A stretch of 43,788 nt of DNA from Fragilaria crotonensis (Eukaryota > Bacillariophyta > Fragilariophyceae > Fragilariales > Fragilariaceae): NCBI GenBank assembly GCA_022925895.1, contig JAKSYS010000527.1, forward strand, positions 1-43,788, in the 5' to 3' direction. A program made the translations under genes and the position numbers. Positions within the stretch are counted from its first letter, which is position 1, and each line of letters starts with the position of its first letter. Shown here in pieces: positions 1,559-32,421 of this stretch. The notes under the pieces are model-generated. The model was not told the origin of the DNA. It saw only the letters and a list, made by a program, of their open reading frames with translations, and did no database searches.

Positions 1559-2439
1559 GTCGATCCTTCAGGATGTGCAGTTGATTGCATTCAATCCTAG
1601 TTGGAGTGTGTTTTCAGCACTTACCCTCGATCACGCTTATATGCCCCGTTATTACCGGTACTTGTAGCGACTCCCTTCAAACTTCAAACGGCGAGTTGGT
1701 GTATCATCGAAGAAGTTCAACACCGTTCAATACTAGGTACGTCTGATCCGTATGATATGTACGTACATATAAGCGACATGGTCTCATGACTTCATCATCA
1801 ACGTAGGAACCTTTCTTCTTAATTGACGTGTCAATTTTACTTGAAGCTAGGGGAATGACCTATCAGGGAATCATGGCTACGAATGAAACATATTGGAGGG
1901 TCTACTTCGAAAACACTAATACTGTGAACACCATTCAAAGGTGCGTCTCGGGATGTCCCATATCTGCCTCGCGCATGTCCCTTCTCGCGTTTTGTTAAAA
2001 AGAGAGTTGATACTAAAATTGTGCTATTTGTTTAGCCTTAATCAACTTCTATTTTCTTTCACCGGTAGGATCCACTTTTTGTAGTAGGAACAACTTTTTT
2101 TAAATATGAAACATGAAAATGAATGTAAGTAAGTTTCTGTACCCGTGACCTTTCAGGCATACGGAACGAGTTCTCTTAAAAGACAAGGTTGAATGACATT
2201 CGATTAAATAACATCTGTCGCATTCGGTACAAAAGTACTACGTAGCCATAGTGAGCAAAGTACCGGTATTTCTATGTATGTGTTTCGAATCGTTGCTATG
2301 TCGTTTCTTCCTACCAGTCACAGTACACAGATAATGAATGTGACATGTTGAAGGTGAAGGATGAGGCATGATCACTTCGTAAGATACCCACACCGGAAAT
2401 GACTATATACTTGTGGTCGTCTACTTGAGTTTTAGAGGG
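1559..2439. other. Intergenic region upstream of the HSF gene
   Basis: About 880 bp with no supported gene. It must contain the HSF promoter at its left end, but I see no core element clear enough to annotate. Its right edge is the insertion boundary of the YR retrotransposon, where target sequence ending in AGAGG meets the element end GATTACAG. Confidence 0.5.
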
Positions 2440-2931
2440 ATTACAGTTAATCTGCCGACGAGAAAATGGGCCACAGAAAAATTTATTAACCTCAATAATC
2501 TTAGTGAAACTGACCGCACTCATCGCCGTCTGGAAGAGTAGACGGCTGCAATGATGCAGTCAGCAGGTGTCTCATAAGCGACGATGCACGGGTGATGCAT
2601 CGTCGCTCGCATAATGGGGGCACAGTAGCACGAATTAGTCAGTGCACAGTAGTGATACCTCCCCAGGTCATGCGTATCCGCATGGCTTCTTGTATTGACC
2701 AAGTCATAGTCTTGAAAGGGTTGTTCTCCTTTGTCCTGTCGTCTCTCTCCGCCTAGTCGGAACAAAGTCATCGGCCAAGGCGGTAAGTTCGGCAGAGAAG
2801 ATATACCTGTTCGAAGTGCAATTCCTTCATCTCGGAATTCCTTCGGTCGATCTTGACACAACTTAAATCAATCGCAGATGCAAGGCCACCGGCTTTGGGC
2901 TGGCGGTCTTGCATCTCGAAGACTAAAACCC
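2440..2931 (-). repeat. Split direct repeat B2 (3' end of YR element)
   Basis: A 492-bp copy of B1 at 3474-3967. The only difference noted by eye is a 2-bp indel in a GA run (GGAAGAGTAG here, GGAAGAGAGTAG in B1). It is the outer 3' end of the element; the flank to its left ends in TTTTAGAGG. A 47-bp spacer (2932-2978) separates it from A2. Small open frames inside it are not genes. Confidence 0.85.
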
Positions 2932-2978
2932 TGCATACGCCCAACGTAAGCAGAGAAAAGAAAGGGATGGTGGGTGGG

Positions 2979-3473
2979 GAAAAAGAAATTCCCTCAAGAA
3001 ATATACGACTTCAGGCCTTGGCTGAACGGTCCGAGGATGAAAGTCGATGCTTTCTTGATTTGTGAGAGAGATTCCTCTCTCTCACCGTGAAGAGACATTC
3101 TGTTGTTGACACCTGGTCAAGATGATGTCGTGGTGACCAGGCTGTAGGATCGGTAGCGGCAGCTACATCGGGTGTCATGGTGATCCGCGGTCTTCAATCA
3201 ATCAAGGACTCATCTGATGTGGTGAAGGTGATCGTGGGAGTGATGGATCATAAAACTCCGATGAAATGGCCGATCCGGATGAACGTCAAGTTTGGACATT
3301 GAAACACACTGCCAATCCAGTGTCGATGATTTTGAATCACGAAGCTTGATTGGGTACAGTAGCGAATTTGGTTAGTAACCGTAATATCAGAGGTGAATGA
3401 ATTTTTACGTAGTTACCAGTTCCTCGCTCTCTGCTTTAACTGTCATCCGACTTAACCTGGGGGTACGCAGAGG
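2979..3473 (-). repeat. Split direct repeat A2 of YR element
   Basis: 495 bp, same length as and apparently identical to A1 at 11944-12438. It abuts B1 directly at 3473/3474. This A2-B1 junction (CGCAGAGG then ATTACAG) is the sequence predicted for the closed circle formed from the element ends. Confidence 0.87.
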
Positions 3474-3967
3474 ATTACAGTTAATCTGCCGACGAGAAAA
3501 TGGGCCACAGAAAAATTTATTAACCTCAATAATCTTAGTGAAACTGACCGCACTCATCGCCGTCTGGAAGAGAGTAGACGGCTGCAATGATGCAGTCAGC
3601 AGGTGTCTCATAAGCGACGATGCACGGGTGATGCATCGTCGCTCGCATAATGGGGGCACAGTAGCACGAATTAGTCAGTGCACAGTAGTGATACCTCCCC
3701 AGGTCATGCGTATCCGCATGGCTTCTTGTATTGACCAAGTCATAGTCTTGAAAGGGTTGTTCTCCTTTGTCCTGTCGTCTCTCTCCGCCTAGTCGGAACA
3801 AAGTCATCGGCCAAGGCGGTAAGTTCGGCAGAGAAGATATACCTGTTCGAAGTGCAATTCCTTCATCTCGGAATTCCTTCGGTCGATCTTGACACAACTT
3901 AAATCAATCGCAGATGCAAGGCCACCGGCTTTGGGCTGGCGGTCTTGCATCTCGAAGACTAAAACCC
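3474..3967 (-). repeat. Split direct repeat B1 of YR element
   Basis: 494-bp copy of B2, lying between the YR ORF and A2. About 210 bp of non-repeated sequence (3968-4176) separates it from the YR stop codon. Confidence 0.86.
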
Positions 3968-4176
3968 CCATCACAGAGAACTCCCCGACCCTGCCTTTTA
4001 TGCAAGGAAAATTTTGCGTTGATTGCCAAGTAAACGACACCGAGAGACAAGTCCGATAGACGCATTCCGACTCTTGTGAAGGGCTCTTGCATAAGCTCCT
4101 TCCTGTCGACTGATAGAGTCCCGATTCTGGTTATCCTTCAGATTTGGAACTCAATCACGAGCTCGACAGCCTTCAG

Positions 4177-5751
4177 TTACATGGCATTCGTGTACCGAAT
4201 GAATGAATCCTTGACCATGTTGACGTCAACATAATGTTGATCGATGGCATGGGAAACTTTTCCGGTTCCTGCGGCCTCTTTCTTCTTCCACCGATTTACG
4301 ACATAGCGGTCGGCTTCCGAGACTTTCATTGCCACAGCCCTTGACTCTGAACCTCGCCTGAAGGATCGAAAGACGTTGTACTTGTCAACAAGAGTACTGG
4401 CGTCAACAATGTCACGACCGAATAAGTGTGGGTGATCCTCGTATATGTCGGTCAGCACGTCAAGAAAGAGTGCATTCATGTCAGCTGTGGAAGACTGGTA
4501 TCCATGAGGGTCCACAAACGCTGGTCCAGTGGACCTTCCCTTCGCTTTGTGAACCGCAATCACACGTGAAAGCCACAGCTTCACCTCGATTCCCGAACCT
4601 GTAGTCGCGCATGAGATCAGGAGGTGTTGCTTTGCGTGATGTTCGCCCTTAAAGCGCCCTAGTAGCGGAACGACAACCTCGTCCGATGCCGGATCGTGAA
4701 ACCTGAGGAGTCCCTCGAGGTCCGCCATCAGTCCTTCTGGACTCCTCAGAGAAAGCACGAAACAGATACAATAATAACCGCCTGCCATCACCCACGTATG
4801 TCGCTCTTCCACGGTGGGTGCAGCTCGAGCTCTTTCCTCGACTCGTTGTAACAGTAAATGAACAATCTGGATCCCGATGGCTTGATTTGGCCGCCAATCC
4901 TGGCCCATTCGTCTACAACACCCCAACATAAACCTTTGGAACCACAACGACCCGCAAGGATCAATGGCGAGGCGTTGGTATCCCGAACCCTTGTTGTCTG
5001 CGAGGACCAGCGGACTTGAGTTTGCGTCTCGAGCGGCCCTGATCTGGTTTGAATAACACGTGCGAAAACGTCTCACGGTGTCCCATTGTTTGTGATCCGT
5101 GGCGTACCTTCCACCCTCCCGAGACGACACCACAATCTGAAGTGCGACCTCGTATCCGCAGTGGTCGTGCGCCGGTAGGGGGCCTGGGGCGAGGTAGGGT
5201 CCGCTTAGCCCAAGTTGCTCTGAAATCTTCAAGCCCTCTCTAACTTTTCTCGTGTTTTGTTTTACAGTATCGGTGGCCCGGCTCCAAAAGGCATCCAGGT
5301 TCACTCGGCGTATGCACGCCAGGCTGAACATGTCCTTGGAATTTTGGTTGTTTGGCGGCCTCTCGTAAAGTTTGTGAAAGATGCAGGTATCGCACTCGAA
5401 CGACACCAATAGGTCATCGCCGTCTCTTGCTCGACAGAACTTTCCCGCATCGGATTTCTTAGGAAGCCAGCCTGACAGAAGTCTGTCCTCGTCGCCGTTT
5501 CCTGCTTGCGGGAGGTCACCCGTGGCCACAAAGAACTTGACCGATTCATCAAAGGAATAACAGCTGCCGCACCATGTGCTCTGGCATGGTCGAGAGGTCA
5601 CAACCGAGTGTCCAAAGTTTGCACAGAAGATCCCGTGTGCCCACTTCAGATTCCTCGAGCACTTTCCGCAACTCCCGACCCACTGCGAACATTTTGGGGG
5701 TGCCTTTGATCTGCCAAGGACGGACGCTGAGAAAGGGGAAAAGAATTCCAA
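4177..5751 (-). CDS. Tyrosine recombinase ORF of the YR retrotransposon
   Basis: 524-codon frame encoding the enzyme expected to insert the circular DNA copy. The N-terminal part has a Cys-rich motif (CQSTWCGSCY, about residues 57-66) and FECDTCIFHKL near 118-128, wording I associate with YR ORFs of protist elements. The catalytic C-terminal part shows LRSPEG (Arg near 336, box I), LLGRFKG near 364, SFRRGSESRA near 463-472 (second Arg) and a candidate nucleophile Tyr in HYVDV near 507. The classical His of H-x-x-R is not evident. The frame opens with TTG right after a stop and has no early ATG. It overlaps the end of the RT/RNase H frame by about 200 bp in the +1 frame, so expression by +1 frameshift or from an internal start is possible. 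Assignment as YR is confident; exact catalytic residues less so. Confidence 0.8.
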   Translation of the reverse strand: MEFFSPFSASVLGRSKAPPKCSQWVGSCGKCSRNLKWAHGIFCANFGHSVVTSRPCQSTWCGSCYSFDESVKFFVATGDLPQAGNGDEDRLLSGWLPKKSDAGKFCRARDGDDLLVSFECDTCIFHKLYERPPNNQNSKDMFSLACIRRVNLDAFWSRATDTVKQNTRKVREGLKISEQLGLSGPYLAPGPLPAHDHCGYEVALQIVVSSREGGRYATDHKQWDTVRRFRTCYSNQIRAARDANSSPLVLADNKGSGYQRLAIDPCGSLWFQRFMLGCCRRMGQDWRPNQAIGIQIVHLLLQRVEERARAAPTVEERHTWVMAGGYYCICFVLSLRSPEGLMADLEGLLRFHDPASDEVVVPLLGRFKGEHHAKQHLLISCATTGSGIEVKLWLSRVIAVHKAKGRSTGPAFVDPHGYQSSTADMNALFLDVLTDIYEDHPHLFGRDIVDASTLVDKYNVFRSFRRGSESRAVAMKVSEADRYVVNRWKKKEAAGTGKVSHAIDQHYVDVNMVKDSFIRYTNAM

Positions 5752-7318
5752 TTAGTAACGGTTCGTGCATACAACTAGTCCAGCAAGAGGAACCAACAGG
5801 CAATTCAAACACGAAGTCTGACGCTCGGTAAAGTTGCTTTGCCCATTGTGTTGTACACAGTCGGGGGCACACGATTATATGACAGTCGGTTTGCCGCTTG
5901 ATCCTTGCCTTCCTCAGTTCTGCGAGAGCGACCTCAGCCGCTATCGGGGGGGGAGACCAGATGTATGTCTCTCGGCCCTTCGCAAGCTTTGGCCTCTCGA
6001 ACCCGTCCCTTCCCGTTTCCCATCCTTCGATACCGTGCCCTGCTTCAAACCACCCCTTCTCGTCCAGCAGAACGGCGTCGTCGCCGCACCAGCTTCGAAT
6101 CCAGGGCACAAGATTCGTTGATCTGTCCACTGCGGAAATGTGGATGGGGATGTGAGCCACCATCGACTCTCCCGCCATAACTCCTTGACCGAGATAACCG
6201 CGAGAGACTCCATCAGTCCCCTGAGCAATCATTCTTGTACCCGAGACGTGGAATATGTGGATTTTCACGTCACTCCTGGTCATCAATCCTTGGAGCCGAA
6301 TGACTAGCCCCAAGAGCTTAGGCGACGATGATGTGCCCCGCGATGCACACGACTCTACAGTCGAATTATCCGTGAACATGTACACTTCCGACCCCTCAAG
6401 GTTTCCGGCCCTCGCTTCGTCTTCCAAGGCTTCAACCACATTGGTAAATTCTTTCCAGTTTGATGACTCGGGGCCCTCATCTGCGCCCCAAACACCGATC
6501 CTAAAATTGAATCCACTTCCGCACGTGAACGTCGCCCCGAGACCAGACCCCGAAGCGTCTCCGAACCCGTATACAACGGTCACCACGGTTCTCGATCGAA
6601 TGCTGACTTGCGGGGCCGACTTTCGTTCCATCATGAAACATAAAGCCGAGAGGTCGTGTATTAGACTTGGGCTTGCTCTTACGAGCAAGGGCGCTTCGGC
6701 GTCTTCTTGTCCTTTCAAGGCGAAGTCCAACTCTTCCTCCGAAATTCCTTCTCTTTCCGCTCTTGCGCACAAGATCATTCTCCATTTTTTCGCAGATAGC
6801 TTCCAGTCATTTTCATCTCTTCCCTCTCTCCAAGAGTTCAGAGTTAAGTATAACCCCTTTAGGTACGGAATCATCGTTTCGAATGTCATGGAGAGGTGGT
6901 TTAAGAAACCTGTTTCCTTCTCTAATGACCGACGATCCAGGAATGGGCGAGAGTCCGTGGTCGCTTTCAATTCTTTGAGACGCCTGCTAGTTATTTCTCT
7001 GCCCTTGTCCCATTTTTCCTGCGAGACCGATTTGGTGATGTGACTGGATCCTATCCTGAAGATTGTCCCTGTCCACGCGCCTGCGTTGGTCTGAGAAGGG
7101 GGGCGGAACTTCCGAGGAGCATTTTGCATTCCAAGGTACTGCATCCTGGAGGCAAACTGGTGATACACCTTCCAACAATTCGATTTAGAGTAGCCGGTGA
7201 TTCTCACGTCGTCTACGAACGTGACAACATCCCCTGCCACGTGACCTCCGCAAGTGCCGGCTTCTGGGTCACTCCTCCACTTCATGACTTTTGGATTTGA
7301 CGGATCATAGTTGGCCAT
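5549..7318 (-). CDS. Reverse transcriptase (YVDD-box part) and RNase H of the YR retrotransposon
   Basis: 589 codons continuing the RT from the previous frame. TFVDDVR at residues 33-39 is the catalytic RT motif C. An RNase H fold follows: GFGDASGSG at 251-259, Glu near 290 (KEFTN), FTDNSTVE at 315-322 and GTDGVSRG at 367-374, giving a D-E-D-D set. The C-terminal part has PWQIKGTP and a helical tail. The frame is in the -1 register relative to the upstream Pol frame and overlaps it by 37 bp (7282-7318), so the RT is split between motifs A/B and C. A one-base loss in a C/G run near 7318-7322 would explain this; a programmed -1 shift is possible but no canonical slippery heptamer is visible. 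An ATG at the start of this frame is probably incidental. Confidence 0.85.
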   Translation of the reverse strand: MANYDPSNPKVMKWRSDPEAGTCGGHVAGDVVTFVDDVRITGYSKSNCWKVYHQFASRMQYLGMQNAPRKFRPPSQTNAGAWTGTIFRIGSSHITKSVSQEKWDKGREITSRRLKELKATTDSRPFLDRRSLEKETGFLNHLSMTFETMIPYLKGLYLTLNSWREGRDENDWKLSAKKWRMILCARAEREGISEEELDFALKGQEDAEAPLLVRASPSLIHDLSALCFMMERKSAPQVSIRSRTVVTVVYGFGDASGSGLGATFTCGSGFNFRIGVWGADEGPESSNWKEFTNVVEALEDEARAGNLEGSEVYMFTDNSTVESCASRGTSSSPKLLGLVIRLQGLMTRSDVKIHIFHVSGTRMIAQGTDGVSRGYLGQGVMAGESMVAHIPIHISAVDRSTNLVPWIRSWCGDDAVLLDEKGWFEAGHGIEGWETGRDGFERPKLAKGRETYIWSPPPIAAEVALAELRKARIKRQTDCHIIVCPRLCTTQWAKQLYRASDFVFELPVGSSCWTSCMHEPLLIGILFPFLSVRPWQIKGTPKMFAVGRELRKVLEESEVGTRDLLCKLWTLGCDLSTMPEHMVRQLLFL

Positions 7319-9570
7319 ACCGGGAGATTCATGATCACTTTGTCATATCCCATGGGATTATCCAACCTTGAGGGGTTCCCACGAGCGAACTCTTCGCCCC
7401 AATAGTAATGTCGGATTGCCAGGTAGGGACTGGGTCTCATTCCCATAAAGAGCCGGGTCCATCGTAACTTTCTGGCATGTCCTGCCTTCTTTGTCCCTTT
7501 GATTTCCTTTGGCGCCACATTTGGTAGAAGCGGGGCCAGCGAGCCCAATTCCACTCCGGAGAAAGGACGAATGCGAGGGTCCATATGAAAGTTGTGGAAC
7601 ATTTCTCCGAAGTCCATATCGGCCATCCATGTTCCAAAGCTCATGGACATGGCCGCTGACCTTGCCGAAGGGAGAAAGAAGTTTGGGGCCCATAGTGTGG
7701 CATTGAGACCACTGGAGGTACCATCGAACACCACTCGAACGTCAGAATCACCCTTTGGAACCGCAAAGTAGTGAACGGTGTTTGTGACATGACCGGGTTC
7801 TAAATAGTCGCGCTTTACCATGGTGTCCAATTTCGAAGCCACGAGCCCTTGTTGGGATTGAGGGAGTGGCGCCGTTTGTCGGCGTTGGCTTGGCAGAGCC
7901 GCTGCCACAAAAATCTTGATCCCATCTCGAGAAGCCCGAATTTGTTCTTGGCCATTCCAGCGCCAAAAGAATAGGCTTGAGCCTCCCGTCCATTCCCACC
8001 ACGAGCTCGAAGAAACTTGGCGCAGGACGCGGAGACCGCACTGGACATCTTGGAGCAGTTGGGTGGAACGGACGTGGTGACGTCGATGTTTTACTGCAAT
8101 GGCCGCCCCCAGCTCAACATTCCCGGACCCGGGTGTTGTCACCCCCAACCCCATTATGTGAGATCCCGCACAGGCGCTCGGTGGAGGAGCGCTACGTTTA
8201 CGCTTGCCGAGCTGAAGGGCTGGAGATTCACCTCGCTCGTGAAACGAACGAGCATATCGCTGAACATCGCGTCTCCAAGACGCCCCATATTCCGCGACGA
8301 GATACTCGAAGAAAGACTTCGAGAGACGTCGAAACCATACACGAAGGCATAAGCGTTCGACGCCACGGATAGCCGTAATGTTAGCTTTCGGAAAGATCAA
8401 CAGAACCCGTTGATTCCATGGGAACTGCTCAATTGCTGCGTCATCCGACTTGACGGCTTTGTCAGCAATCAAGATGTTGGCCCATGACCCTGGAAGCCAC
8501 ATCTGTAAGTCGTCGAGCCATTCGGCGTCCAACGGGAGGGGCGAGGCGGTCTTGATTGCTAATTTCGGTCGAGACGAACGTGCCTGTTCATCCGTCTGAG
8601 GGGACCGAATAACTCTCAATGTAGCGTCGATAATGACCCGGAAGACCTGAATAGGCACAATTTTTGTGGCAAAATCGTCTTTCCACTGAACAAAAGACGG
8701 CAAATCAAACGCCTGAGCGAATTCCTCATCCGAAAGTTTTCGGATTCCCCAGCCGGATCTTGAGAAGCAAGACTCATACAGTACTGGTTGCTTCATGTGT
8801 TGAACCGAAAGCCGATGCCCCAGGAGGTAATGAGGCTCCGGATGAGGGACTGAACACGGTGTGGGACGAATTGAGAATTTCACGATGTGTGAAATGACTC
8901 GCTGGAGGGGATCAGTCTCAATTTTCAAGGAATCGAGGTGACCCTGACCGAACACTCCTCTGGCTGTTGTAGACCCGCCCACCGTTTCGTGGGAAACACT
9001 GAACCACCGATGTTTGATAGTATCGGGTGGCCGTCGCCGGCCGCAACGCTCCGCCCACACCACCCTAGGCACGCCTTCCGGTAGCGATACCATTTCCAAA
9101 AACTTCCGAGAGCCGCTCAAAAACCACACATTGATGGCATCCGAATGTTTTACATCCGAAAGAGAAGTCACGATTCTGAGCCGTTCCTTGGTGTGTGACC
9201 ACGTTGAAGTATAGTACTGGCGAAGACGGAGTTCGTCGGTGTCCAAGATATAGATGTCTTTCCAATCAGAAGGTCGAATAGCCCACAACCATGCTGGGAC
9301 GTCTTCGAACATTACGCCACAGCATAAAGGTTCCGAACGCCCCTGAAAACCTCTCTTTACAAGTTTGAGCGGTCGATATTCTTTCGGAGGCTCCGAGCGA
9401 GATTGAACAGGAGTTCCGAGCTTGGTAGGGGTTGATGATGCTGCACTCAGGATGTCAGGAGAGGTCAAGAAACGAGGAAGAATGGTAATTTTGGTAGAAT
9501 CCTCGATGCTACTAGCATTACCCTGGTGTGGCGAATTGCCATCCGAGGTCTCCTCCTCGTTTCCTAACCG
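7282..9570 (-). CDS. Pol N-terminal domain and reverse transcriptase fingers/palm of the YR retrotransposon
   Basis: Open from directly after the Gag stop (9571-9573) to a stop at 7282, in the same frame as Gag, with no ATG until about 50 codons past position 9468. It is therefore best read as a Gag-Pol extension by readthrough. The first roughly 400 residues are an unrecognised domain; RKLSDEEFAQAFDLP in it resembles a conserved stretch found ahead of RT in related protist elements, and loosely a motif of cytosine-C5 methyltransferases. The C-terminal 200 residues are RT: KRDYLEPG, VRVVFDGTSSGLN and motif A ADMDFGEMFHNF (about residue 616 counted from 9468), then RWTRLFMGMRPSPY (motif B region). 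The VDD motif lies in the next frame. Confidence 0.82.
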   Translation of the reverse strand, partial: RLGNEEETSDGNSPHQGNASSIEDSTKITILPRFLTSPDILSAASSTPTKLGTPVQSRSEPPKEYRPLKLVKRGFQGRSEPLCCGVMFEDVPAWLWAIRPSDWKDIYILDTDELRLRQYYTSTWSHTKERLRIVTSLSDVKHSDAINVWFLSGSRKFLEMVSLPEGVPRVVWAERCGRRRPPDTIKHRWFSVSHETVGGSTTARGVFGQGHLDSLKIETDPLQRVISHIVKFSIRPTPCSVPHPEPHYLLGHRLSVQHMKQPVLYESCFSRSGWGIRKLSDEEFAQAFDLPSFVQWKDDFATKIVPIQVFRVIIDATLRVIRSPQTDEQARSSRPKLAIKTASPLPLDAEWLDDLQMWLPGSWANILIADKAVKSDDAAIEQFPWNQRVLLIFPKANITAIRGVERLCLRVWFRRLSKSFFEYLVAEYGASWRRDVQRYARSFHERGESPALQLGKRKRSAPPPSACAGSHIMGLGVTTPGSGNVELGAAIAVKHRRHHVRSTQLLQDVQCGLRVLRQVSSSSWWEWTGGSSLFFWRWNGQEQIRASRDGIKIFVAAALPSQRRQTAPLPQSQQGLVASKLDTMVKRDYLEPGHVTNTVHYFAVPKGDSDVRVVFDGTSSGLNATLWAPNFFLPSARSAAMSMSFGTWMADMDFGEMFHNFHMDPRIRPFSGVELGSLAPLLPNVAPKEIKGTKKAGHARKLRWTRLFMGMRPSPYLAIRHYYWGEEFARGNPSRLDNPMGYDKVIMNLPVWPTMIRQIQKS

Positions 9571-9573
9571 TCA
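9571..9573 (-). promoter_or_regulatory. Candidate readthrough stop codon (UGA-CGG) between Gag and Pol
   Basis: On the minus strand the context is AAG TGA CGG TTA. The frame before and after is the same (Gag start 11937 and the Pol frame are congruent modulo 3) and Pol lacks its own ATG. UGA followed by CGG is one of the established leaky stop contexts. A small hairpin can form 12 nt downstream (CGAGG pairing with CCTCG around AGGAGA). Readthrough itself is inferred. Confidence 0.6.
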
Positions 9574-11937
9574 CTTTCCCTTTGTCATGCCTCCCATCGC
9601 CCTCTTCAATGTTTCGATTTCCTTGTTTGCCGCCGAGAACTTGTCGGTAATTGTTGATGCCTTGGTGAGAGCTCTTTCGGCGATATCGAGGGCCTTCTCG
9701 ACCTTCTCCTTCATTTGCGAAACAGCAACCTCCATTTTTTCAACTTTGTCGAACCCTGAGTTAGTCGCAAGAAATTTTACATACTCGGCAGAGATGGCAG
9801 GGTGATTCTCGAAGTGGTGATCGATGTACGACTTCATCACATCGTGCGTCCGGAAACAGGCCCAAAGGAGGTGCGAGCAAATGGACGCCGGTTCCTCCAC
9901 TGTCATTGCATCGGCTACACCTTCTTTAGGAGCATAAAGGTCTTCGCATACACGGTCAAGAATCTGGGTAGTTAAAGACCACGCCTGGTCCGCGGAAAAC
10001 TTCGAATCAGAGTGGAGCTTCTGGTAAATAGCGTCAACGAAACCCAGGAGTTGGGTCAAGAACGTGACTGTCGAGTTCAGACTGGCAGTGGCCACTGCTT
10101 TGGCCGCAATCATGGTGAGATCGTGTCCAAATGCGTACTCGATGTCATGTGCCACAGTTGAATGAATTAAGTTCATCTGCTTGATCACATGATTCATTAC
10201 ACCTTCTCCGCCGGATTTCCAGCTCTTGTAATGAGGAAGTTTTGATAGCTTTGAGGTGTTTCTCTCGTTTGTCATCGCAACTCGACCCTTGTGGAACAGG
10301 CGAGGACGATTGAAGTGAAGAGCTTTGATGGCTGCTGCCTCAGCTCCGGTCTTGATCTTAAGCTTGACCCGAGATTCCAAAACTTTAAACTGGGTGTCCG
10401 CATCCATATCGTCCGAACCGAAGATGCGATCAAGCATCAGAAGGGGGTCCATTACCAGACCATAGCGATAGGAGGAGAAATTCTTGACGACCCACTCGGA
10501 ACACTCAGATAAGTCGCGAATACCGAGCCCTCCAAACTTGATGGACTTGTCTTCGGTGTTTGCTTTCAACACTCCGACATCGCGTGATAGCATTCTGATC
10601 TCGTTTGCGAACCGGCGAAGCTCTTCTTCCGTTCGGATTGAAGCGTCAGACACCCCGAGGCTTTCGTTTCCTTCCTCCATTTCGACCTCCGATTTCTTCG
10701 TATCATTGTTTAGCAAGGTCATGAGGTGGTCCACCACCGGGCGATCCTCCTTTGAGTCCTGTTTCAGGTTTACCCTCTGCTTCTTGAGCCTGGGGATGCC
10801 TTCAAGATCTTGATCGTGTTTAGCAACATCGGTCTTGATTGCCTCTATTTCTGACCCAACACCTTGAATGCGCTTTATGACAGACGTGAGAACCGCCACG
10901 ATCTTGGCCTCATCTTCAACCTTGGATTTCTCAACTTGATCCATTCTTCCGACCACGGACTTCATCTCGGTGACTGCCTCTGACGTTTCCACTTTGGACT
11001 GATTTACGTCCAGTCCTAGGCGGTCCACTTCTTCACCAATGAACGACGTTGTGCCCCATAAGGTGGGTGCTTCGAATTTCGGGTCCATTTCTACTGCGGA
11101 TCCGAGCGAAGACATGAGGTTCTGAACTGCCCCCGCCATGAGGATTGCAGTTTGTTCATTATCCAAGAAGCGACCGTGCGATAGAGAGGCCACTTCCTCG
11201 AGCGTGCGACCCATTTCTACAACGACAGATTCGAGTCGCGAGACAATCCTTGTCAGACCACCTCTCCCCAAAGATCCACCCTCAATCATAGCCTCCAAAC
11301 CGGTGTCCCCTTCCACTGGCAGGGTGCGACGGTAATTTGGTACTACGATAGTACTGAGAGGTTCGGAGAGACTGACCTGTGCCTTCCTCTTCTTAGCGGG
11401 AGTCCTGAAAACCTCAGCTTCGTCTAGCAGTTTGACCTCGGACTTGATGTCGTCTTCCGATGCCAATTCGTCATCAGCATTTGTGACAGCACGAAAGGCC
11501 TTAACCCACATTGGAAGAGACCACTCCTTTCCTGCCCACTCTGCCTGAGTGCTACTCGGTACCTTTGACATAGGTACCGAGGGTTGGGAGAAAACGGTCG
11601 CGCCGCTGACTCTGAAGATGAAGAACCTGGAATCGTCGAATGCTGGTATCTTGTTCGTCCCATGGGACTTGATCTTGCAACCCTTGCGAACACAGAACGA
11701 CGAGCCTCCGACGCCAATCAAACCAAAACACAAAGAACGATCCGAGCCCGGAATCAAAACAACAGAGTAGCAACGCTTAGTATCAACCATACCTTCAGTA
11801 GAGCCAACAACCCCCTCCATACTCGCCGGAGAGGGCGACGCCGCGACAGGCGAGGCGAAAGAGACAGAAGCCCCGGGAGGGGCAGCAGCGAGAGAGAGCG
11901 AAGCAGTAGCCTCCTGCAAGAGATCATCGAGCGACAT
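9571..11937 (-). CDS. Gag-like ORF1 of the YR retrotransposon
   Basis: 788 aa starting at an ATG 7 bp inside the A1 repeat edge. Residues 1-45 are Ala/Ser/Pro-rich. A possible zinc-binding set C70, C82, C87, H92 (SLCFG then FCVRKGCKIKSHG) precedes a basic patch near 187-191 (KKRKA) that could be a nuclear localisation signal. The middle (about 225-430) and the last 55 residues are predicted by eye to be coiled coil, fitting a self-assembling nucleocapsid protein that packages element RNA. Length is compatible with YR-element ORF1. It ends at a single UGA followed by CGG, and Pol continues in the same frame. Function as Gag is inferred from position and composition, not from a diagnostic motif. 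Confidence 0.72.
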   Translation of the reverse strand: MSLDDLLQEATASLSLAAAPPGASVSFASPVAASPSPASMEGVVGSTEGMVDTKRCYSVVLIPGSDRSLCFGLIGVGGSSFCVRKGCKIKSHGTNKIPAFDDSRFFIFRVSGATVFSQPSVPMSKVPSSTQAEWAGKEWSLPMWVKAFRAVTNADDELASEDDIKSEVKLLDEAEVFRTPAKKRKAQVSLSEPLSTIVVPNYRRTLPVEGDTGLEAMIEGGSLGRGGLTRIVSRLESVVVEMGRTLEEVASLSHGRFLDNEQTAILMAGAVQNLMSSLGSAVEMDPKFEAPTLWGTTSFIGEEVDRLGLDVNQSKVETSEAVTEMKSVVGRMDQVEKSKVEDEAKIVAVLTSVIKRIQGVGSEIEAIKTDVAKHDQDLEGIPRLKKQRVNLKQDSKEDRPVVDHLMTLLNNDTKKSEVEMEEGNESLGVSDASIRTEEELRRFANEIRMLSRDVGVLKANTEDKSIKFGGLGIRDLSECSEWVVKNFSSYRYGLVMDPLLMLDRIFGSDDMDADTQFKVLESRVKLKIKTGAEAAAIKALHFNRPRLFHKGRVAMTNERNTSKLSKLPHYKSWKSGGEGVMNHVIKQMNLIHSTVAHDIEYAFGHDLTMIAAKAVATASLNSTVTFLTQLLGFVDAIYQKLHSDSKFSADQAWSLTTQILDRVCEDLYAPKEGVADAMTVEEPASICSHLLWACFRTHDVMKSYIDHHFENHPAISAEYVKFLATNSGFDKVEKMEVAVSQMKEKVEKALDIAERALTKASTITDKFSAANKEIETLKRAMGGMTKGK

Positions 11938-11943
11938 GAAAAA

Positions 11944-12438
11944 GAAAAAGAAATTCCCTCAAGAAATATACGACTTCAGGCCTTGGCTGAACGGTCCGAG
12001 GATGAAAGTCGATGCTTTCTTGATTTGTGAGAGAGATTCCTCTCTCTCACCGTGAAGAGACATTCTGTTGTTGACACCTGGTCAAGATGATGTCGTGGTG
12101 ACCAGGCTGTAGGATCGGTAGCGGCAGCTACATCGGGTGTCATGGTGATCCGCGGTCTTCAATCAATCAAGGACTCATCTGATGTGGTGAAGGTGATCGT
12201 GGGAGTGATGGATCATAAAACTCCGATGAAATGGCCGATCCGGATGAACGTCAAGTTTGGACATTGAAACACACTGCCAATCCAGTGTCGATGATTTTGA
12301 ATCACGAAGCTTGATTGGGTACAGTAGCGAATTTGGTTAGTAACCGTAATATCAGAGGTGAATGAATTTTTACGTAGTTACCAGTTCCTCGCTCTCTGCT
12401 TTAACTGTCATCCGACTTAACCTGGGGGTACGCAGAGG
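11944..12438 (-). repeat. Split direct repeat A1 (5' end of YR element)
   Basis: 495-bp copy of A2. As the 5' end of the element it probably carries the internal or upstream promoter, but no element can be pinpointed. The outer edge reads CGCAGAGG on the plus strand, followed by flanking GTTCATTT. Confidence 0.87.
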
Positions 12439-13685
12439 GTTCATTTTTCCTCCTTTGTCAGATCAACGACAAGTTTGATGTTGCAGTTGAAGCCACCATA
12501 CCAGTAGGCCAAAAGCTTTAAACATCGACGAGCATCAGAAAATTAGGTGTGACGCACGCATTGGTTCAATAAAAGGACAAAACAAAACTTCACAAAACCC
12601 CTTTTTTTCTTTCTTTTTTCAATGAAAACTCATCCCTTATTGAAGACATGAAACAATTGCATCACTGCCGGACAGTTTTGTAGAGCCCAACATAGTAACC
12701 TACCTCTGACAAAAATGACTTTCACTCTGTTGGAATTTTTTAACAAACGTGACTTGCAAGAAACTCATGGATTCCAGGAGATGCTGTGGCTGCTATCTTC
12801 AATGCCATTTGAGAATTCTATTCAACTCCTGTGTGGCAGATGGCTAAATGATTTTGTTCTTCTTCAGAATATCTTTCGTTCATTCTTCCAATTTCTGCCA
12901 GAGGGGCACTTCGTCAAATGCAACAAGATAATCAGATGTGGATCCCGGGTCGTACAAGATTGATATGTCAACCCTAGTAGACAGCACACACGGCTTGAGA
13001 GTTCAGTCCAACAAGAACCTCTTCTTTCATCCACTTGGCCTAGTACCCACAGATTGGAGTACATCCTGCGGCAACATTTGTACAATTTGTGAGCAGCCTC
13101 CCCGAATGGGAAGCCGAATTATTGCATGACATTGACTTGTGCGAAGACCCCTTTACTGTAAGCAATGCACTGTCATATTGCATCCGGCGATGAGTGACGG
13201 CTGCGTGTGGACAGATAAACAAGGAACTTGGGTGACATAGTTGTGCGTGGCATGGGATCAGCTCAGGGAGCCAAGCAAGGTTGATTCCTACTGCGCGGAA
13301 GCATATAGCTAGTAGCTAGCATGATGATGGCTATGCTTTGCTTTCTTCGTCGGTTGGCAGAGTTCACGACCCAACTGGTGCCACCATGGACAGGGATCTT
13401 GGCAACGGATAGCCAAGCCTCTTGGATACCATCACGGTCACCACCACACCACCATCAAAAGGAGAACATTGTTGCCCTCAGTATGCACAACAGAAACCAG
13501 TTGCACAACTTGATGTGAAGTGGCCGGAGTGGTATTTGCTGAGAAGTATCCTCACAAAAAGCTTGAACGCTAGCAAGGTGTTACTCTCCAACATGTGAGG
13601 GGCCACCAGGATTGAAAAGTGGCAGGAAACAATATTATATCATTGTTGCCGTCTGGATTCTGTACAATTTTTTATGGTAATCTAA

Positions 13686-16650: not shown

Positions 16651-16749
16651 GAATATTTAGACCCCTCGGGGTCTAAATTTTGACCGTGGGGTCAAATTTG
16701 CTGAATTTAGACCCGGGGATTAAATTATAGACCCCAGGGGGTCAAATTC
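16651..16749. repeat. Cluster of inverted GGGGTC(T/A)AAAT motifs
   Basis: About 100 bp built almost wholly from alternating direct and inverted copies of a 10-12-bp word, ATTTAGACCCC and GGGGTCAAATT. The first pair, 16656-16677, is a perfect palindrome with 10-bp arms and a 2-bp centre. It ends 10 bp before the Harbinger left TIR, outside its TAA duplication. Confidence 0.7.
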
Positions 16750-16985
16750 AAGATCCTAAGGGCGATCCTTACGGGAAACAAAACTGGCTTTCAACAAAAT
16801 TTGCAGCAGGTTGTGTGGAAGGTTTTGTGCACCTATTCCTTACGACTTTATCTGAGTACAAAACTTACCAGTTTATCAATATCTTGGGACCTGAACATCA
16901 ACATAAAAACACGTGCGATTACGTAGAAATGATACTAGAACTTAGGATTTCGAACTTGTTTTGCCACCATTGTTTGTTTCCAACC

Positions 16986-18799
16986 ATGTCAGATCCGCCT
17001 TCAGCAACGGCATCGCTCACCGGTAAGAAGAAGAGCCGCAATGGTGGAACCAATGTGAGCAAGGAACTGCTTATGGAGTTTCAAGCTCTCATTGCCTACG
17101 CATGTTACGACTCACCTTCTATTTCGGGGGCTGGCGTGTCGATGACGGAATCCACGATGGAAAAGCTCATGATGAAGCTTTGCTTTGGGGAGAATCATGA
17201 CAACCACGACGAAATGGTTTGCTACGTTGATCAATTTTTACTTGGTCTTAACAAGTTTAAAGGCTTGTATGCTGGGCCGCCGCCTCCTCTGACTGATGTC
17301 GATGCAGGAGTCCCTTCAGAACTGTTACTGTGTGTTCCTCCATCCTTACATCGTCAGGGAAAAATACATATTTTTGTTGGGGAAGGCTCAATCGAGAAGA
17401 GGCTTCTCATGCAAAAATCATTGACAAACGAAAGTGGAATTAATGGAAGGACAATGCTGAGACTTGCAAAGGACGTTTTAGCGAATTGCAAAAAGATGAA
17501 TGCAATCGTCACGTCCAGCGATTCACCATACAAGGACTTCAGATCTTTTCCGTCTGGAACAAATTACGAAGACTATCTCAAATGGTGCCTCACTGCAATG
17601 TTTACAAATGATGACGACAAAAAAGGTACGTCCGCAGTGTTGCCAATAACGTTTGTGTATTTGTGCAAGTATCGAAGCGACTGATTTCTTATGCTGTTTC
17701 GTTGACAGATACTAGCAGTAGTGACACTCCTAAGAAAAGTAGCGAAGGTGACATTGAGCTACAACCATCAACTTCAAGTCCGTCATTCTCTCAACAACAA
17801 GGTAAAACTGGGGATCCAGCAGGAGTTGAGATCTCACCTCCTCCCAACTATTTCTTCAAGGGATTTCTAGCGTGGTGTCTATGGGGTCACTTACCCATCG
17901 AGAATGACGGCACAATGAAGTCCTTGCTTTTTACGGAAGCCAAGGTTCCGACATCGTTTGGTAGGAAGACTGCTTCACGTCAGTCTTCCAAACAGTATCA
18001 GATAAAGCAGCACCAGGATGGAGAAACCTTGATGGGTCGCCGCGGAACGAAGAGATCGGTGTCCGAAAGTGAGAGTACTATGACGTCGTCTCCAAATGAA
18101 GATAGTAGCAACAAACAACAACGAAATGCCATCCTTCAACAAATGCACCGTTTCAACGCCGAGTACATCGAGAGAGAACTGCAGAAACGAAGTGCCTTGC
18201 AGGTAGCTATTGTCCGGGACAAAATATCTGCACTCACAAGAAAAAGCGACAGGGCAACAGAGAAGCTCTTCCGAATGAAGAAGGGTTTGGCTGCTGATGA
18301 GTTGAACACCGTTGTGGAGAACTTGGACCGAGAAATCGAAAATCTCGAAACGGAGCTGAGGACTTTGCAAGAGAGAGAAATCCAGCGTCGAGACAAGGTG
18401 ATGATGATGACAGGCCAGCACGTGATGGTCGAAGAGAACGTTCTGGAGGATGATGACGTTGTTGAAAATAACATTCTCAGCAAGAAGACTCCAGACAAGA
18501 ACACCCCGGATAAGAACACTCCCGCCGTCATCAATAATCGAGATGTCGAATATCCTCTGGATGTTGTTTTGAAGGATCCGCCCCAAGAACAACCGTCAGG
18601 AAACATTTGTGTTGAATGTTCCGCCACTCCAAGTATTCACAAGTGCCGAAGGTGTCGGCGATTTGTCTGTACTTTGTGTTGCTCAGAGAAGCGGCATCTG
18701 GATATGATTTGGTGGTGCGGCAACTGCTTTGAAAACGAAAGTATCACGAACCAACAACAAATTCGTGACGGAAAATACGAGTCAGACGGAGAAGGGTAA
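16986..18799 (+). CDS. Harbinger partner protein with coiled coil and Cys-rich zinc finger (2 exons)
   Basis: Exons 16986-17625 and 17709-18799, joined in phase by an 83-bp GT-AG intron (AG/GTACGT donor, TTGACAG acceptor), give about 576 aa. The start is the first ATG in frame (MSDPPSATASL). The N-terminal 200 residues are an unrecognised helical region. A middle segment (PPNYFFKGFLAWCLWGHLPIE) lies in exon 2. Then comes a long charged coiled coil (about AEYIERELQKR to LQEREIQRRDK) and a repeated DKNTP linker. The C-terminus is a finger of the pattern CxxC-x8-CxxC-x4-CxxCC...WWCxxC (NICVEC to WCGNCF), a cross-brace-like arrangement of at least eight Cys. Harbinger elements usually encode a Myb/SANT partner that imports and targets the transposase; this protein holds that position but lacks a visible Myb domain. 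Role inferred from position only. Frame intact. Confidence 0.75.
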
Positions 18800-18821
18800 T
18801 AGAGCTGTCTACTTATGAAGG

Positions 18822-20571
18822 TTAGACTCTAATGAAGTTAGATGAATTTATGTCCATTAGGAATAGTGCTGGTGGGAACTTGTCGTGGTTTCTTGGCAAG
18901 TCGCGCATATCATTTTCGTGGAATTTAGTGTCGAAATGTTCAATAAGCATTGAACGGAAACAAGTCAATGACAAATCCTTCACTGCCATTCCATTCCTAA
19001 AAGTTGTGCTCGGAGAACAACTTTCAGCAACGTCATCAGCACTGTTGTATTTGTCATTATGTCCTGCGTCGTTCTTATATCCAATTGTGGTACCATCGTA
19101 GGTACGGATTGCACGTGAATTTGCTCCGGACGGGTCAACCAACCTCCGAATAGCATCGGGAACCTCGCTTTCATCGAATTCTCCGCTCTCTAACTCCCAG
19201 TGGGACGGAACACCATTTCTCCAACCGTCGCTCAGGCCATCAACATACAACAGAAGGTTGTGCAGAGCACAACACGTCAGCCAGATATTATCTGCAACCG
19301 CTGTTGTGCATCCTAATTCCTGTCTTGAGAACTCGCCATCGTCCTTTCAATATTCCAAACGCACACTCAACATCCTTTCGCAAGGATTCGAGCCATTGGG
19401 AGAATCGAATCTCACTGCGATTCATAGAATGCTTCAATGGAGGCACAGTTGTAGGCCATTTCAGGTAGCCATTGTGGACAATTACATATGCACCCTTGAT
19501 TGTGACATCGCTTCCACTTTTGTTCGACAAAACAAACGACATCGTGGAATCAAACTCACCATCTCGGAGTTGATGCATGAAGCCATCATACCGTACGAGA
19601 GTTTTATCATTCCACCTTCCAGGATGGCCTGTCGTGGTGTGCAATATCTTGCGACGGTGATTGACCGTCAAATTGTACATCCGAGTGGTGCAAGGCATCT
19701 TGTACCCAAGATGCGCTTGCCTTAATCCAAATGACATCTTCTCAAGAGGTATGTGTGTTGCATCCGTGCTGCCGATGCAACCAGGAAAGCCTGCATTTCT
19801 GTACTCACGTTCGCAGTCTCGTAATTCCTCTAACGTAGAAGGGGTTGTCACATATAGGGGATACAGCTTCTTGGCGCCGAACTCCACGAATTTGTGAAAG
19901 AAAACGCGGTACACCTCCTTGTCAATAAAAGTCGACTCCTCCACCAGATCATCAAACGTCCACCCTCGACCAAGGTAACGTAAGCTACCCAATACTAATA
20001 GTTCGATAGGACTTACTTTTCTGTTCTTGCATGTGCCATCAACTCTCCATCTGTGAAACATACCGCCCGAAACAGCCCTTTCATTTTCAACCATTTGCAG
20101 TAGATGAAGGAAAGAGTTGTACGGCAATCGAAATTGCTTCCTAAAGGTCTTGGCCCATTGAGGATTATCAGGCTGTGGATCTTGCATGTAGAGTATCCAC
20201 CATAGACTAAGTTTTGGCGTGACAGAGCGAGGATTTCCAGTTGTTGGGTCAGTGCAAAATTTTGGGTGTTGCATTCTCGCTCGTTTGGTAGGTGGCTCTA
20301 GTGAATTCTTCATTCGTGCCTTCGCCTCATCTGTTGCTCCAAGTGCAAACTGCAGGTACATGAATTGAAGTTTCCTCCTTGCATCCTCCTCATCTTCTTC
20401 TCTTTGCTGATATTCTTGATACAGAAGTTGATTCAATGTGCGGTCATCATTGTAGCACAAGCATTCTTTGATTGGACGTGAGTCGTTGCCACCCCCGCCA
20501 TAGATGCTTTTAATGACTTTAGCAGCTTGAGTTGCAAGGTCATCTTTTTCAGTACTTTGAACAGCTCCCAT
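18822..20571 (-). pseudogene. Harbinger DDE transposase (DDE_Tnp_4 type), frame-broken copy 1
   Basis: The likely start is ATG 20571 (MGAVQSTEKDD); the frame is also open upstream. It includes LPYNSFLHLLQMVENE (helical N-terminal region) and the catalytic domain: GSTDATHIPLEKM (first Asp), GHPGRWNDKTLV, VIVHNGYLKW where the second catalytic Asp is expected, and VECAFGILKGRWR (Glu). In VIVHNGYLKW the expected Asp reads His (GTG at 19474-19476 on plus, CAC codon). The frame ends early at 19288 because two bases present in the other copy are missing near 19297 (CAACCG here, CAACTTCG there). The remaining C-terminus continues in another frame to the stop at 18822. Family assignment is firm; activity is doubtful. 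Confidence 0.88.
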
Positions 20572-20719
20572 CGTTAAGAGAAGGGGAGATGAAATAAAGG
20601 AATGTTGGACAAATGGAGGAGTTGTTGAGGAGGATGAAGAATTCAGCCTGCCCTTGTTGACATCAATAGCAACACGACAGCAGTGGATTGTTTGTGTCAC
20701 GATCTTGAAAACTTCAAAG

Positions 20720-20914
20720 TTGCACTGCAAGTTTTGTTAACCCGGAGGCGAACAAAACTTGCTGCAAATTTTTGATAATAGACCATGAAACCCGGTTTCC
20801 CAAAACATGCTGCAAGTTTTGTGGGACAAGTTTTGTTCGTAAGGACTGTAATTAACAAAATTGGCTGCAAGTTCTGTTTTTGTATGCAAGTTTTGTTTGT
20901 CGTAAGGATCGCCC
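20720..20914. repeat. Subterminal motif array of the Harbinger right end
   Basis: About seven direct or inverted copies of GCAAGTTTTGT or near variants lie in under 200 bp between the transposase leader and the right TIR. The left end has only one or two (ACAAAACTGGC). Such subterminal motifs are typical transposase or partner binding sites; binding is inferred. Confidence 0.65.
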
Positions 20915-25295: not shown

Positions 25296-28159
25296 ATGAC
25301 TGAAGGAACGGCCCCGTTGCCGTTCTTTGCGTCTGATAACCCCCCTGATGTTACCGCATCTGTGTTCAACTTTACCATCGTTGCCTATGTTCAAACTCCT
25401 GCTTTGATTGAGCGCGAGAATGATTCGAAAGCAGCGATTGAAAATCGAAAAGTCGATGATGATAGTTACCGACGCTCGGTTTCACCGACCAGTTGGCACC
25501 GGTTCACTACCTTAGGATTTCAAGCAACGCATGGCAAAGACTTCGATATGATTTGGAGAGACCGTAACTCCAATCCACTTTGTTTTCATCGACTCGTATG
25601 GTATAACTACAAGGCTTACGTTGATCGTGAATGCAATGTTAACCCTAAGTTACACGCATGGGCAACCAACGTCTCGCATCCATTTTTACTCGAACATTCA
25701 CCAGAATCGTTGGAAATGGACACAGAACGGTTTAGTTGGTCACGCATTCTTGCTCATTTTGCTAAACACTTAGACAAAGGTCTGTGGAAAGCAGTAAAGG
25801 GAACGAATAAACGTAACGAAAAATGTCGACAGATCTATCTCCAACCAAACATTTCGACAATGAGGAATTGACAACCACGGAAAAGCGCACGATTCAACAT
25901 TCCTGTTCCCGAGATAACTGAAGACAACAATTCGGATCAGTTGAGACCAGAAATCGAGGAGGTCGCTACGTTGATGACAAACATGACAAACCAGGATGTC
26001 GAGTGGATTCGGACTCTGAGTCTGATGCTAAGCAATCGGCGTTTACGCTGAGCAACGAGGTTAGGACAAATGACGGCACGCATCGCATTTCGATTAAATG
26101 GAAATTATCCCGAAGGAGTTCACGGAGCTGGTCGATAACAAAACTCGTCTCCACTCAGAAATCTTTTCGGTTTTGGGCGTTGTATTTCAGGAGACTGACG
26201 GGTATTTCTACCAATGGGATAGTGATGAATTGATCTATCCAAAAAGAGCCCACGAGTTGACTGTTTCGGATTTGAAAGACTACTTAGAGCCTCAAATCAC
26301 GACAGCTCAGTCTCTGCACTTGGTCGTTTTTGCAGTACGCTTCGCTTTCGCCGAGAATCCTATTTCGTGGAGGAATTCCACTCACGTCCAATCCGCTATG
26401 AAACTGAACAATCTTCAGATTCATGAATCCAATGTCAACACTACCGCAGGAATTCCAGTGGTGGCTGGGTATATTCTACTGAAACATCCGACGATGACTT
26501 TAAGGCATAAGTATACACAATTCCTCAGGTCTCGAATCGTGGATACGTTGCCTTACTTCGACATTCGCCTCCATCGGAAGACACCAACAGACAAGTCGAT
26601 CGCCCATTTGGTGGTATACTGCGGGAAAACAGGTGACAGATCTATGCCAAGAGCTCTCGACAATCTTGAACGGACAAAACACGGCTGTGTTCCTCCTCGA
26701 TACACATTTGCAAATATGACAAACGATCAAATCGACAACCATTTCAAGATGCATGAAACGTACATCCGGGCATTACAACCAATCTCATTGGCACCGCTTG
26801 TGACAACGTTAGATTTGAAACGGGTGGAGTACTTTCCAGATGGCACGACAATCGAAAGGTCGACTCGCGATTGGGTTTGTCCCTCAGACGAGAGGACGGG
26901 GACACACATGCACAATGCGATGTGGTAAATGGAGTAAAGAACGTCAGAACTGCATATGTCATGGCTCCTGCGGCTTATGTGTCAGAAATTCGAGCGATGG
27001 TGGCGAAATACAAGGAACGTTTACGACCGATTGCTCGCCGAGAAGCAAAGTATCGAGAAGGGATTCCAGACTTACCAGATGTCATTCACATTACGTCTAC
27101 TGTTCAAACTAACCTAGACTTTATGGCAAAAATGTCCTCCAGCGATATTTGGAGTAAAGCTCCGCCATCGGTCAAATCTTCGCCTTCTGCTGTCGCATCA
27201 GCTGCAGCAAACCGTTCAGCTCCGTCGGACGCATCGGCCAACAGTGACAATACCGCTCAGTGGCCGTCGTTGGTAAAACGACCAGGACTTGACGTCTCTA
27301 ATCCGATCAAGTCAGTACCTAAGTCGGGTGCCAATCTACCGCGTAAGGGAAAACCAAAACTCAACTGGACATGCATGGTAAATCATCCCATATCAGTCTC
27401 ACGTCGGAAGAAGTTGATGACCGAGCCGACACAGCCTCTACCCATTCTCTGACCAATACGTTGAGATCGTCAACGACCATGCGGATGATGGAGTTGGAAA
27501 ACCAGATGCGCGAATGTCGAGAACTCCTACGTTCGAACAGGGAAGCAGCTCGAGACTCGTCGGACAGATTGGCGGCAAACGAACAAAGTCTTCGAGAAAC
27601 TATGGAGACCATAACGGAAATGACACATACAGTGGCCGGATTACAAACGCAGTTCGCGGGTTTCAACATCACGATGGAGAGCATGCGACTCATGTTGCAC
27701 ACACTGATGCATCAGTCAAGCGCCAACAGTGTTCAAGTCGAAAGTAACTTTTCATCTTCAGCTTTTCCGTCGTTTCCAATGCCGCATCATCAGTTGACGA
27801 CAATTTCTGAATCCACTCGCACAACTGAGTTACAAGGCACGGGGGACAGCACATCCGTGGCATCAGAGGACTCAATGTATCGCAGATCTCCCGAGAAGAA
27901 GAAAACGAGGAAATACGATGAGCAGAATATCTCGAATTCAGCAAGTCCCCCAGTCGACCTTGAAGATGTTCAAATGTGCCTTTTCGAGGAAGGACCCCCA
28001 GATGAAACTCAGGACACTGTTATTGCCAATGCTTTATCGGGCCAATCTCATGACGACCTCGTTCGACAATCCACGTCACAAACTCACAAACAAAATTCAA
28101 GCCCCCCGGACGCTCAATACACAAATCCAAGTGATCCGGCTGGGCGTGAGGACACGTAA
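25296..28159 (+). pseudogene. LINE-like ORF1 protein, multiply frameshifted
   Basis: Successive open pieces: 25296-25871 (starts MTEGTAPLPFF), 26098-26928, 26940-27452 and 27371-28159, each continuing the other in a new frame. The middle piece has YFDIRLHRKTPTDKSIAHLVVYCGK, wording I associate with ORF1 or polyprotein segments of diatom retroelements. The last piece is a clear coiled coil (MRMMELENQMRECRELL onward) followed by a Ser-rich tail. It probably was an RNA-binding, self-associating ORF1 protein. It now looks non-functional. Confidence 0.6.
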
Positions 28160-28376
28160 TGAGCCAATACAAGCGAGTGTCGATGGCATCTGAGACGGAA
28201 ACTGAGTTACCGTCAAACGATGCACAGTCAGTCGATTCCGGAACTTCGATTCCTATCGACAATGAAACGTCAATTCCCATAAGTATATTGATAGCGCGAA
28301 GTTACAATGGCGACAGCTATTTTCCAAGCCGATTACGGACAATGATTCGAGACCAACGACACTGACAACTCTGAAC

Positions 28377-32399: not shown

Positions 32400-32421
32400 T
32401 AGAGCTGTCTACTTATGAAGG

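Follow-up and report, generated by a model that had tools for sequence, protein, structure and literature searches.

The diatom Fragilaria crotonensis contains a family of retrotransposons in which programmed readthrough of a UGA codon very probably makes Gag-Pol, as judged from sequence comparison and predicted RNA folds. The copy described here lies on the minus strand of a 43,788-nt contig (JAKSYS010000527.1, here C478), the whole of which is called the window. The genome comprises 62.1 Mb in 881 contigs, and its assembly has indel noise; a search for the silicon-transporter family PF03842 gave 18 matches above the cut-off among 19 listed, consistent with a diatom. C-numbers below denote contigs and L-numbers loci of this one genome, within which all comparisons were made. 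The original prediction of candidate programmed readthrough is supported by an in-frame TGA kept at the junction, a single frame for Gag and Pol, and a bias to C after the stop; from these we infer readthrough as an event.

The Gag-Pol junction

The Gag open reading frame (ORF) of the window copy runs for 795 codons from stop to stop. Its first ATG is at 11937, and it ends with AAG TGA at 9573-9571. The Pol ORF opens at 9570 with CGG, in the same frame as Gag. The ORFs thus confirm that Gag (from 11937) and Pol are in one frame with a lone AAG TGA CGG between them. Pol had been described as ATG-free for more than 30 codons; this is true, and the exact stretch is longer, the first in-frame ATG coming after 86 codons. 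The position given for the end of Pol, 7282, proved not to be its end: the frame breaks inside the reverse transcriptase (RT) near 7.3 kb, and RT and RNase H resume in an ORF at 7342-5549. Positions downstream of the stop are numbered with its first following base as +1. The features of the junction are:

9571-11937, minus strand: Gag ORF from ATG to TGA (ORF list)
9571-9573, minus strand: UGA stop, the proposed readthrough codon, in the context AAG UGA C (same place in 14 of 14 intact lineages)
9361-9570, minus strand: open linker of 70 codons from the UGA to the conserved Pol motif, with no in-frame stop or ATG
9551-9569, minus strand: proximal arm of the predicted 19-bp stem (+2 to +20)
9463-9481, minus strand: distal arm of the predicted 19-bp stem (+90 to +108)
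9544-9559, minus strand: small CGAGG/CCTCG hairpin, an alternative to the long stem
9509-9520, minus strand: TAATGCTAGTAG, the TAATnnTAGTAG motif
9494-9497, minus strand: CTAC, with which GTAG of the motif may pair
7282-9570, minus strand: first part of the Pol ORF, with the N-terminal domain and the start of RT

Relatives were found by searching the genome with Gag, Pol and RT segments. Junctions were fetched from 29 loci, 30 with the window; family fragments such as C753, C618, C317 and C83 lie outside this set. Near-duplicates (L015, L017, L019, L020, L022, L024, L029 and L030) and broken, truncated or decayed loci (L003, L014, L007, L018, L025, L026, L009 and L027) were set apart from 14 intact lineages. 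Of the latter, L018 represents a decayed L013, L026 has decayed too heavily for a judgement, and L009 and L027 have no Gag side. The intact lineages together with L003, L007, L014 and L025 make up 18 non-duplicate readable loci.

In 22 of the 30 loci Gag is separated from the first conserved motif of Pol by a lone TGA, with both in one frame. Gag ends with an in-frame TGA in 17 of the 18 non-duplicate readable loci; in L007 alone, small indels displace the TGA and leave Gag and Pol fused with no junction stop. Gag and Pol have a common frame in 16 of the 18, where 6 would be expected (P = 1.7e-6). TGA-C is also kept in L003 and L014, where Pol lies off frame, and in L025, where it is in frame and the linker (65 codons) contains one later in-frame TAA. 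A sense codon or another stop in place of the UGA, which would have spoken against the original prediction, is therefore not a family pattern, the exceptions being the fused L007 and the off-frame L003 and L014.

TGA is present at the junction in 14 of 14 intact lineages. The base after it is C in 12 and T in two (L002 and L008). Eleven recombinase-ORF ends of the same elements were used as a control: seven have TGA and one has C as the next base. The junctions differ from these ends both in the use of TGA (p = 0.03) and in the following C (p = 2e-4; Fisher). No two of the 14 lineages are more than 84.5% identical in the last 200 residues of Gag or more than 63% identical in 150 residues of Pol, and the minima are 18% and 16%. 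Nonsynonymous divergence (dN) in 13 cross-lineage pairs is 0.11-0.40 for the Gag tail and 0.30-0.79 for the Pol domain; synonymous divergence (dS) is undefined through saturation in most pairs, so no cross-lineage dN/dS ratio is given. The original prediction had looked to other genomic copies for UGA-C kept, an unchanged frame and conserved flanks, and the family bears it out on the stop, the frame and the C alike. No relative was confirmed in a viral contig collection or in a prokaryote contig collection; little was expected in the latter.

The linkers between the stop and the Pol motif are 19-80 codons long in the 14 intact lineages and are poorly conserved. There are no in-frame stops in their 859 codons, compared with 40.7 expected from composition and with 31 and 77 in the other two frames. 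Shuffling the linkers 1000 times with dinucleotides preserved gave a mean of 37.6 in-frame stops and a minimum of 20. Within the first 20 linker codons there are 0 stops in 279 codons, against 13.9 expected. Since in-frame stops are absent right behind the TGA, the linker frame appears to be translated from there. The Pol frame itself is open from the stop in L003 and L014. Seven of the 12 main-family linkers contain no in-frame ATG.

RNA downstream of the stop

Folding was scanned in 100-nt segments at 49 positions, covering about 1.2 kb on either side of the stop. The segment starting 6 nt past the stop has the lowest mean fold z of the 49 (-2.17); the next is -1.03. When pairing of +1 to +28 with +56 to +140 is scored, the stop ranks first of 111 anchors with a mean z of -1.56, and 106 control anchors average 0.02 (standard deviation 0.27). 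The stem was also ranked within each element against 500 other anchors, without shuffling, and the combined p is 2e-5 (Fisher). The predicted excess of structure after the stop thus holds in aggregate across lineages, rather than by covariation. By lineage, the stem is strong in the window copy, L023, L004, L008, L016 and L002, moderate in L010, L011 and L013, and weak in L001, L006 and L021. In the broken loci L003, L007, L014 and L025, stem ranks range from 0.06 to 0.83.

The window stem has 19 bp and a z of -6.3, matched by 0 of 100 shuffles. The original prediction had pointed to a small CGAGG/CCTCG hairpin. This hairpin is present at +12 to +27 and is superseded by the 19-bp stem between +2 to +20 and +90 to +108; since the fold favours the long stem, the hairpin was discarded as the main structure.

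A second element of the region is the sequence TAGTAG or TAGTAA, found at +39 to +78 in 10 of the 12 main-family lineages, in seven of them as the full TAATnnTAGTAG. It is missing from L012, L013, L021 and also L023. The flanking 42,148 nt contain two occurrences of TAGTAG or TAGTAA. In the 10 lineages the motif is always in one codon phase, and the codon before it is variable; among broken loci, L025 has it in the same phase and L003 and L007 in another. Through the motif the third base is fixed in a codon that is otherwise free in the residue it encodes, and the motif uses AGT, the rarest serine codon of the Gag tail (19 of 245). For these two reasons the constraint looks to be one on nucleic acid and not on peptide. 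Nine of the 10 lineages have CTAC 8-23 nt past the motif, or TTAC if the motif is TAGTAA, and L001 has none; by itself CTAC turns up in about 18% of 42-nt stretches taken for comparison. Across the genome the full motif shows no enrichment, with 152 matches against 264 for the reversed sequence.

Proposed mechanism and alternatives

In the mechanism proposed here, most ribosomes would halt at the UGA and release Gag, and a minority would decode it with a near-cognate tRNA and continue to Gag-Pol. The leak would be set by the C after the UGA and by folded RNA just downstream. The first arm of the predicted stem starts within about 12 bases of the stop and would pair 60-130 nt away. The UAGUAG motif may also form an internal hairpin by GUAG/CUAC pairing in most lineages of the main family. 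Readthrough is taken as the mechanism because the UGA, the C and a stem that starts within a few nucleotides and closes 50-150 nt further on match viral signals, and because long terminal repeat (LTR) elements provide precedents. We infer both the rate of readthrough and the part of the fold as its driver.

Several observations weigh against readthrough. The lineages were chosen as intact, so that frame and openness are partly conditioned on that choice, and L003, L014, L025 and L007 deviate. The linker contains an in-frame ATG in five of the 12 main-family lineages and in both distant ones. Its amino acids are weakly conserved (dN 0.59-1.41), and dN exceeds dS in both pairs with L023. The context past the first base after the stop varies (CGG, CGA, CAA, CAG, CAT, CTT, CTG, TGC and TGG), and no post-stop context has CUAG or CARYYA. 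L005 and L012 lack the outer stem, L012 having a local hairpin instead; the stem is individually non-significant in several lineages, and total folding energy combines to just p = 0.003. Finally, the junction of Tca2, an element of Candida albicans, alone gave no readthrough in Saccharomyces cerevisiae (PMC2194720).

In the main rival reading Gag would be joined to Pol by splicing, if a short intron reaching from the G-TGAC at the stop to the TAG of TAGTAG were removed in a minority of transcripts. In 11 of 14 lineages the base before the TGA is G, which gives GTGA; the motif could act as both branch point and acceptor, and the joined reading frame would be of the right phase. The off-frame L003 would be brought into frame by such splicing and so fits it better. 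Splicing needs neither the constant phase between TGA and motif, which all 10 intact lineages with the motif share (11 of 13 once L003, L007 and L025 are included), nor the openness of that stretch, which has no in-frame stop in 193 codons (equalled in 2 of 5000 shuffles). GT is missing at the stop in three of the 14 lineages (L011, L021 and L023), and L012, L013, L021 and L023 lack the motif. The one resolved host intron (L053, with a paralogue, L052, similar by eye) reads AAG/GTGAGT...TACTAAC...TTACAG, unlike GTGAC...TAG. The motif's failure to be enriched genome-wide also counts against an intron, which we consider very unlikely. Translation of Pol on its own, whether ribosomes reinitiate or use an internal entry site or the mRNA starts at an internal promoter, is given as little credence. 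It is favoured by early in-frame ATGs in some linkers (for example L004, L010, L016 and L023) and by the presence of a junction promoter in Tca2 (PMC2194720). It has to contend with the seven of 12 main-family lineages in which the first in-frame ATG lies past the start of the conserved Pol domain, and it requires neither a frame open from the codon after the stop nor one shared with Gag, as seen in 16 of 18 loci.

With several copies in evident decay, and the break in RT in the window copy itself, the UGA might be seen as an ordinary terminator, or as a chance stop in decaying copies, with the sharing of frame being functionless. Against this, 14 lineages with mostly saturated synonymous sites and conserved flanks retain the TGA, the common frame and the open linker, and the probability of so many shared frames arising by chance is the 1.7e-6 given above; we regard decay as extremely improbable. 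Insertion of selenocysteine, or reassignment of the codon, is scarcely credible either. UGA is the codon in question, and selenoproteins are known in diatoms. Against both, no Rfam family reaches its gathering score in window 2400-12500, and UGA also terminates other ORFs of the same elements. Of these readings programmed readthrough is much the most probable for the family.

The element and comparison with known systems

The ORFs of the element are ordered Gag, RT with RNase H, and then a recombinase-like ORF in the +1 frame. The labels RT, RNase H and recombinase refer to conserved blocks which we take to be these domains. The remaining features of the window copy are:

2434-12441, minus strand: entire retrotransposon copy of about 10.0 kb (similarity to copies C760 and C33, and split repeats)
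11946-12441, minus strand: split direct repeat A1, 5' end (copy comparison; a 300-nt block is 100% identical to A2)
5549-7342, minus strand: portion of Pol with RT (FVDD) and RNase H, in this copy out of frame with the first part (presumed domain labels)
4177-5751, minus strand: tyrosine recombinase-like ORF in the +1 frame, overlapping the RT/RNase H ORF (presumed label)
3469-3967, minus strand: split direct repeat B1 (copy comparison and repeats within the window)
2981-3479, minus strand: split direct repeat A2 (copy comparison and repeats within the window)
2434-2931, minus strand: split direct repeat B2, 3' end (copy comparison and repeats within the window)

Three blocks, two of 300 nt and one of 101 nt, recur within the window, and the two copies of each are 100% identical. 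The split direct repeats are ordered A1-[ORFs]-B1A2-B2 in the window copy, and this order is partly shown for C760 and C33. Split direct repeats of this kind suggest that the element is a Ngaro-type tyrosine-recombinase retrotransposon.

Compared with the window copy, C760 has 21 gap positions and four mismatches over 5721 nt, and C33 has 43 and five over 5689 nt. The C760 reading frame is open across the break point of the window copy (C760:9596-11800 and beyond); its own frame break lies near 9.6 kb. Because C760 is open there and the copies differ mostly by indels, the frame break at window 7282-7342 looks like assembly indel noise or a recent mutation. C33 contains the 3' flank of the window copy down to at least window 1149 and may therefore be the same locus; no 5' flank match was found between the two. 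This suggests that C33 (L042, C33:103400-106900) is an allelic or duplicate assembly, or a join at repeats. Neither C760 nor C33 was counted as independent of the window. Repeat stretches downstream in C760 (L041, C760:13800-17300) and in C33 (L042) match several A- and B-type repeats of the window; these may be the same repeats seen twice, or a tandem arrangement in C760.

Matches to the RVT_1 profile are weak and below the cut-off (E 0.093 for the window copy and 0.011 for L004). The RT/RNase H region has the conserved blocks FVDD/IDD, GDASG, N-[WF]-[KR]-E and FTDN, which presumably mark these domains. Residues R336, R465/R466 and Y507 are invariant in eight of eight aligned recombinase ORFs and are presumably catalytic. 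Searches of PDB, Pfam and NCBIfam gave no relevant match for the recombinase ORF, and its single-sequence structure prediction was too poor for use (predicted local distance difference test score 35.1). There was no Pfam methyltransferase match in the element, in a scan which barely detects even RT.

Two other regions of the window, 16731-20736 and 28000-34000, contain ORFs, and a segment is repeated near 17.6-20.7 kb and 31.4-33.3 kb. We take these ORFs to resemble a Harbinger-type transposase and a non-LTR element with endonuclease and reverse transcriptase.

The methyltransferase-free state separates Ngaro from DIRS and PAT elements. Ngaro ORFs usually do not overlap (PMC3266345). Here, in the window copy and in L031, L032, L033, L034, L035 and L037, the recombinase ORF lies in the +1 frame and has about 160-350 nt in common with the RT/RNase H ORF, a departure from the usual Ngaro layout. 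The first ATG of the recombinase lies after a conserved cysteine-rich block in C204, C67 (L033), C456 and the window copy, and before it in C307, C547 and C223; this placement implies that a second recoding step or another start may be needed. A tentative extension, which we think doubtful, is that two recoding steps act on one mRNA throughout the clade: UGA readthrough by a new two-part signal, the long stem with the UAGUAG hairpin, would yield Gag-Pol, and a +1 change in the conserved RT/recombinase overlap would yield Gag-Pol-recombinase. If so, the recombinase would be made at a small fixed fraction of Gag. A conserved leaky stop at the Gag-Pol junction would by itself bring the extended-stem readthrough signal to cellular elements and a further order of retroelements. 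The diverged junctions could serve as a natural set of variants for dissecting UGA leakiness outside the usual model hosts.

Ngaro elements such as those of Cafeteria burkhardae have split direct repeats in the order A1-[ORFs]-B1A2B2, as here, and encode a tyrosine recombinase, the presumed product of the recombinase-like ORF in this family; they are about 6 kb long compared with about 10 kb here (PMC8547959). The word 'readthrough' does not occur in the main text of that paper or in the available text of PMC6681497 and PMC12477816, nor does 'stop codon' in that of PMC3266345. Titles and abstract openings in the open-access literature gave no report of readthrough in tyrosine-recombinase retrotransposons, and how these set the ratio of Gag to enzyme is not described in the papers examined.

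Gag-Pol with an in-frame stop is already known in LTR retrotransposons. Like the present family, Tca2 of C. albicans has gag-UGA-pol with a possible RNA structure on the 3' side, in its case a pseudoknot, but it is an LTR element and its junction is debated (PMC2194720). The fission yeast Ty3/Gypsy elements Tj1, Tosmo1-3 and Tcry1 likewise have an in-frame TGA-C between Gag and Pol, in a strict stop context, and the stop of Tj1 is reported to be essential for transposition (PMC10085805). They differ from the present family in having LTRs and an integrase, and in that a strictly conserved 8-bp context, and not an extended fold, is described for them (PMC10085805). Closest in form are the viral signals. 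Alphaviruses combine UGA-C with an extended 3' stem, and such signals are predicted for furo-, tobra-, peclu- and pomoviruses (PMC9553062). As in F. crotonensis, the stop is UGA, mostly followed by C (C in Sindbis virus), and the arms are about 50-150 nt apart (PMC9553062). The putative diatom signal differs in standing at the Gag/Pol junction of a cellular retrotransposon, in a stem whose sequence varies between lineages, and in the additional predicted UAGUAG hairpin.

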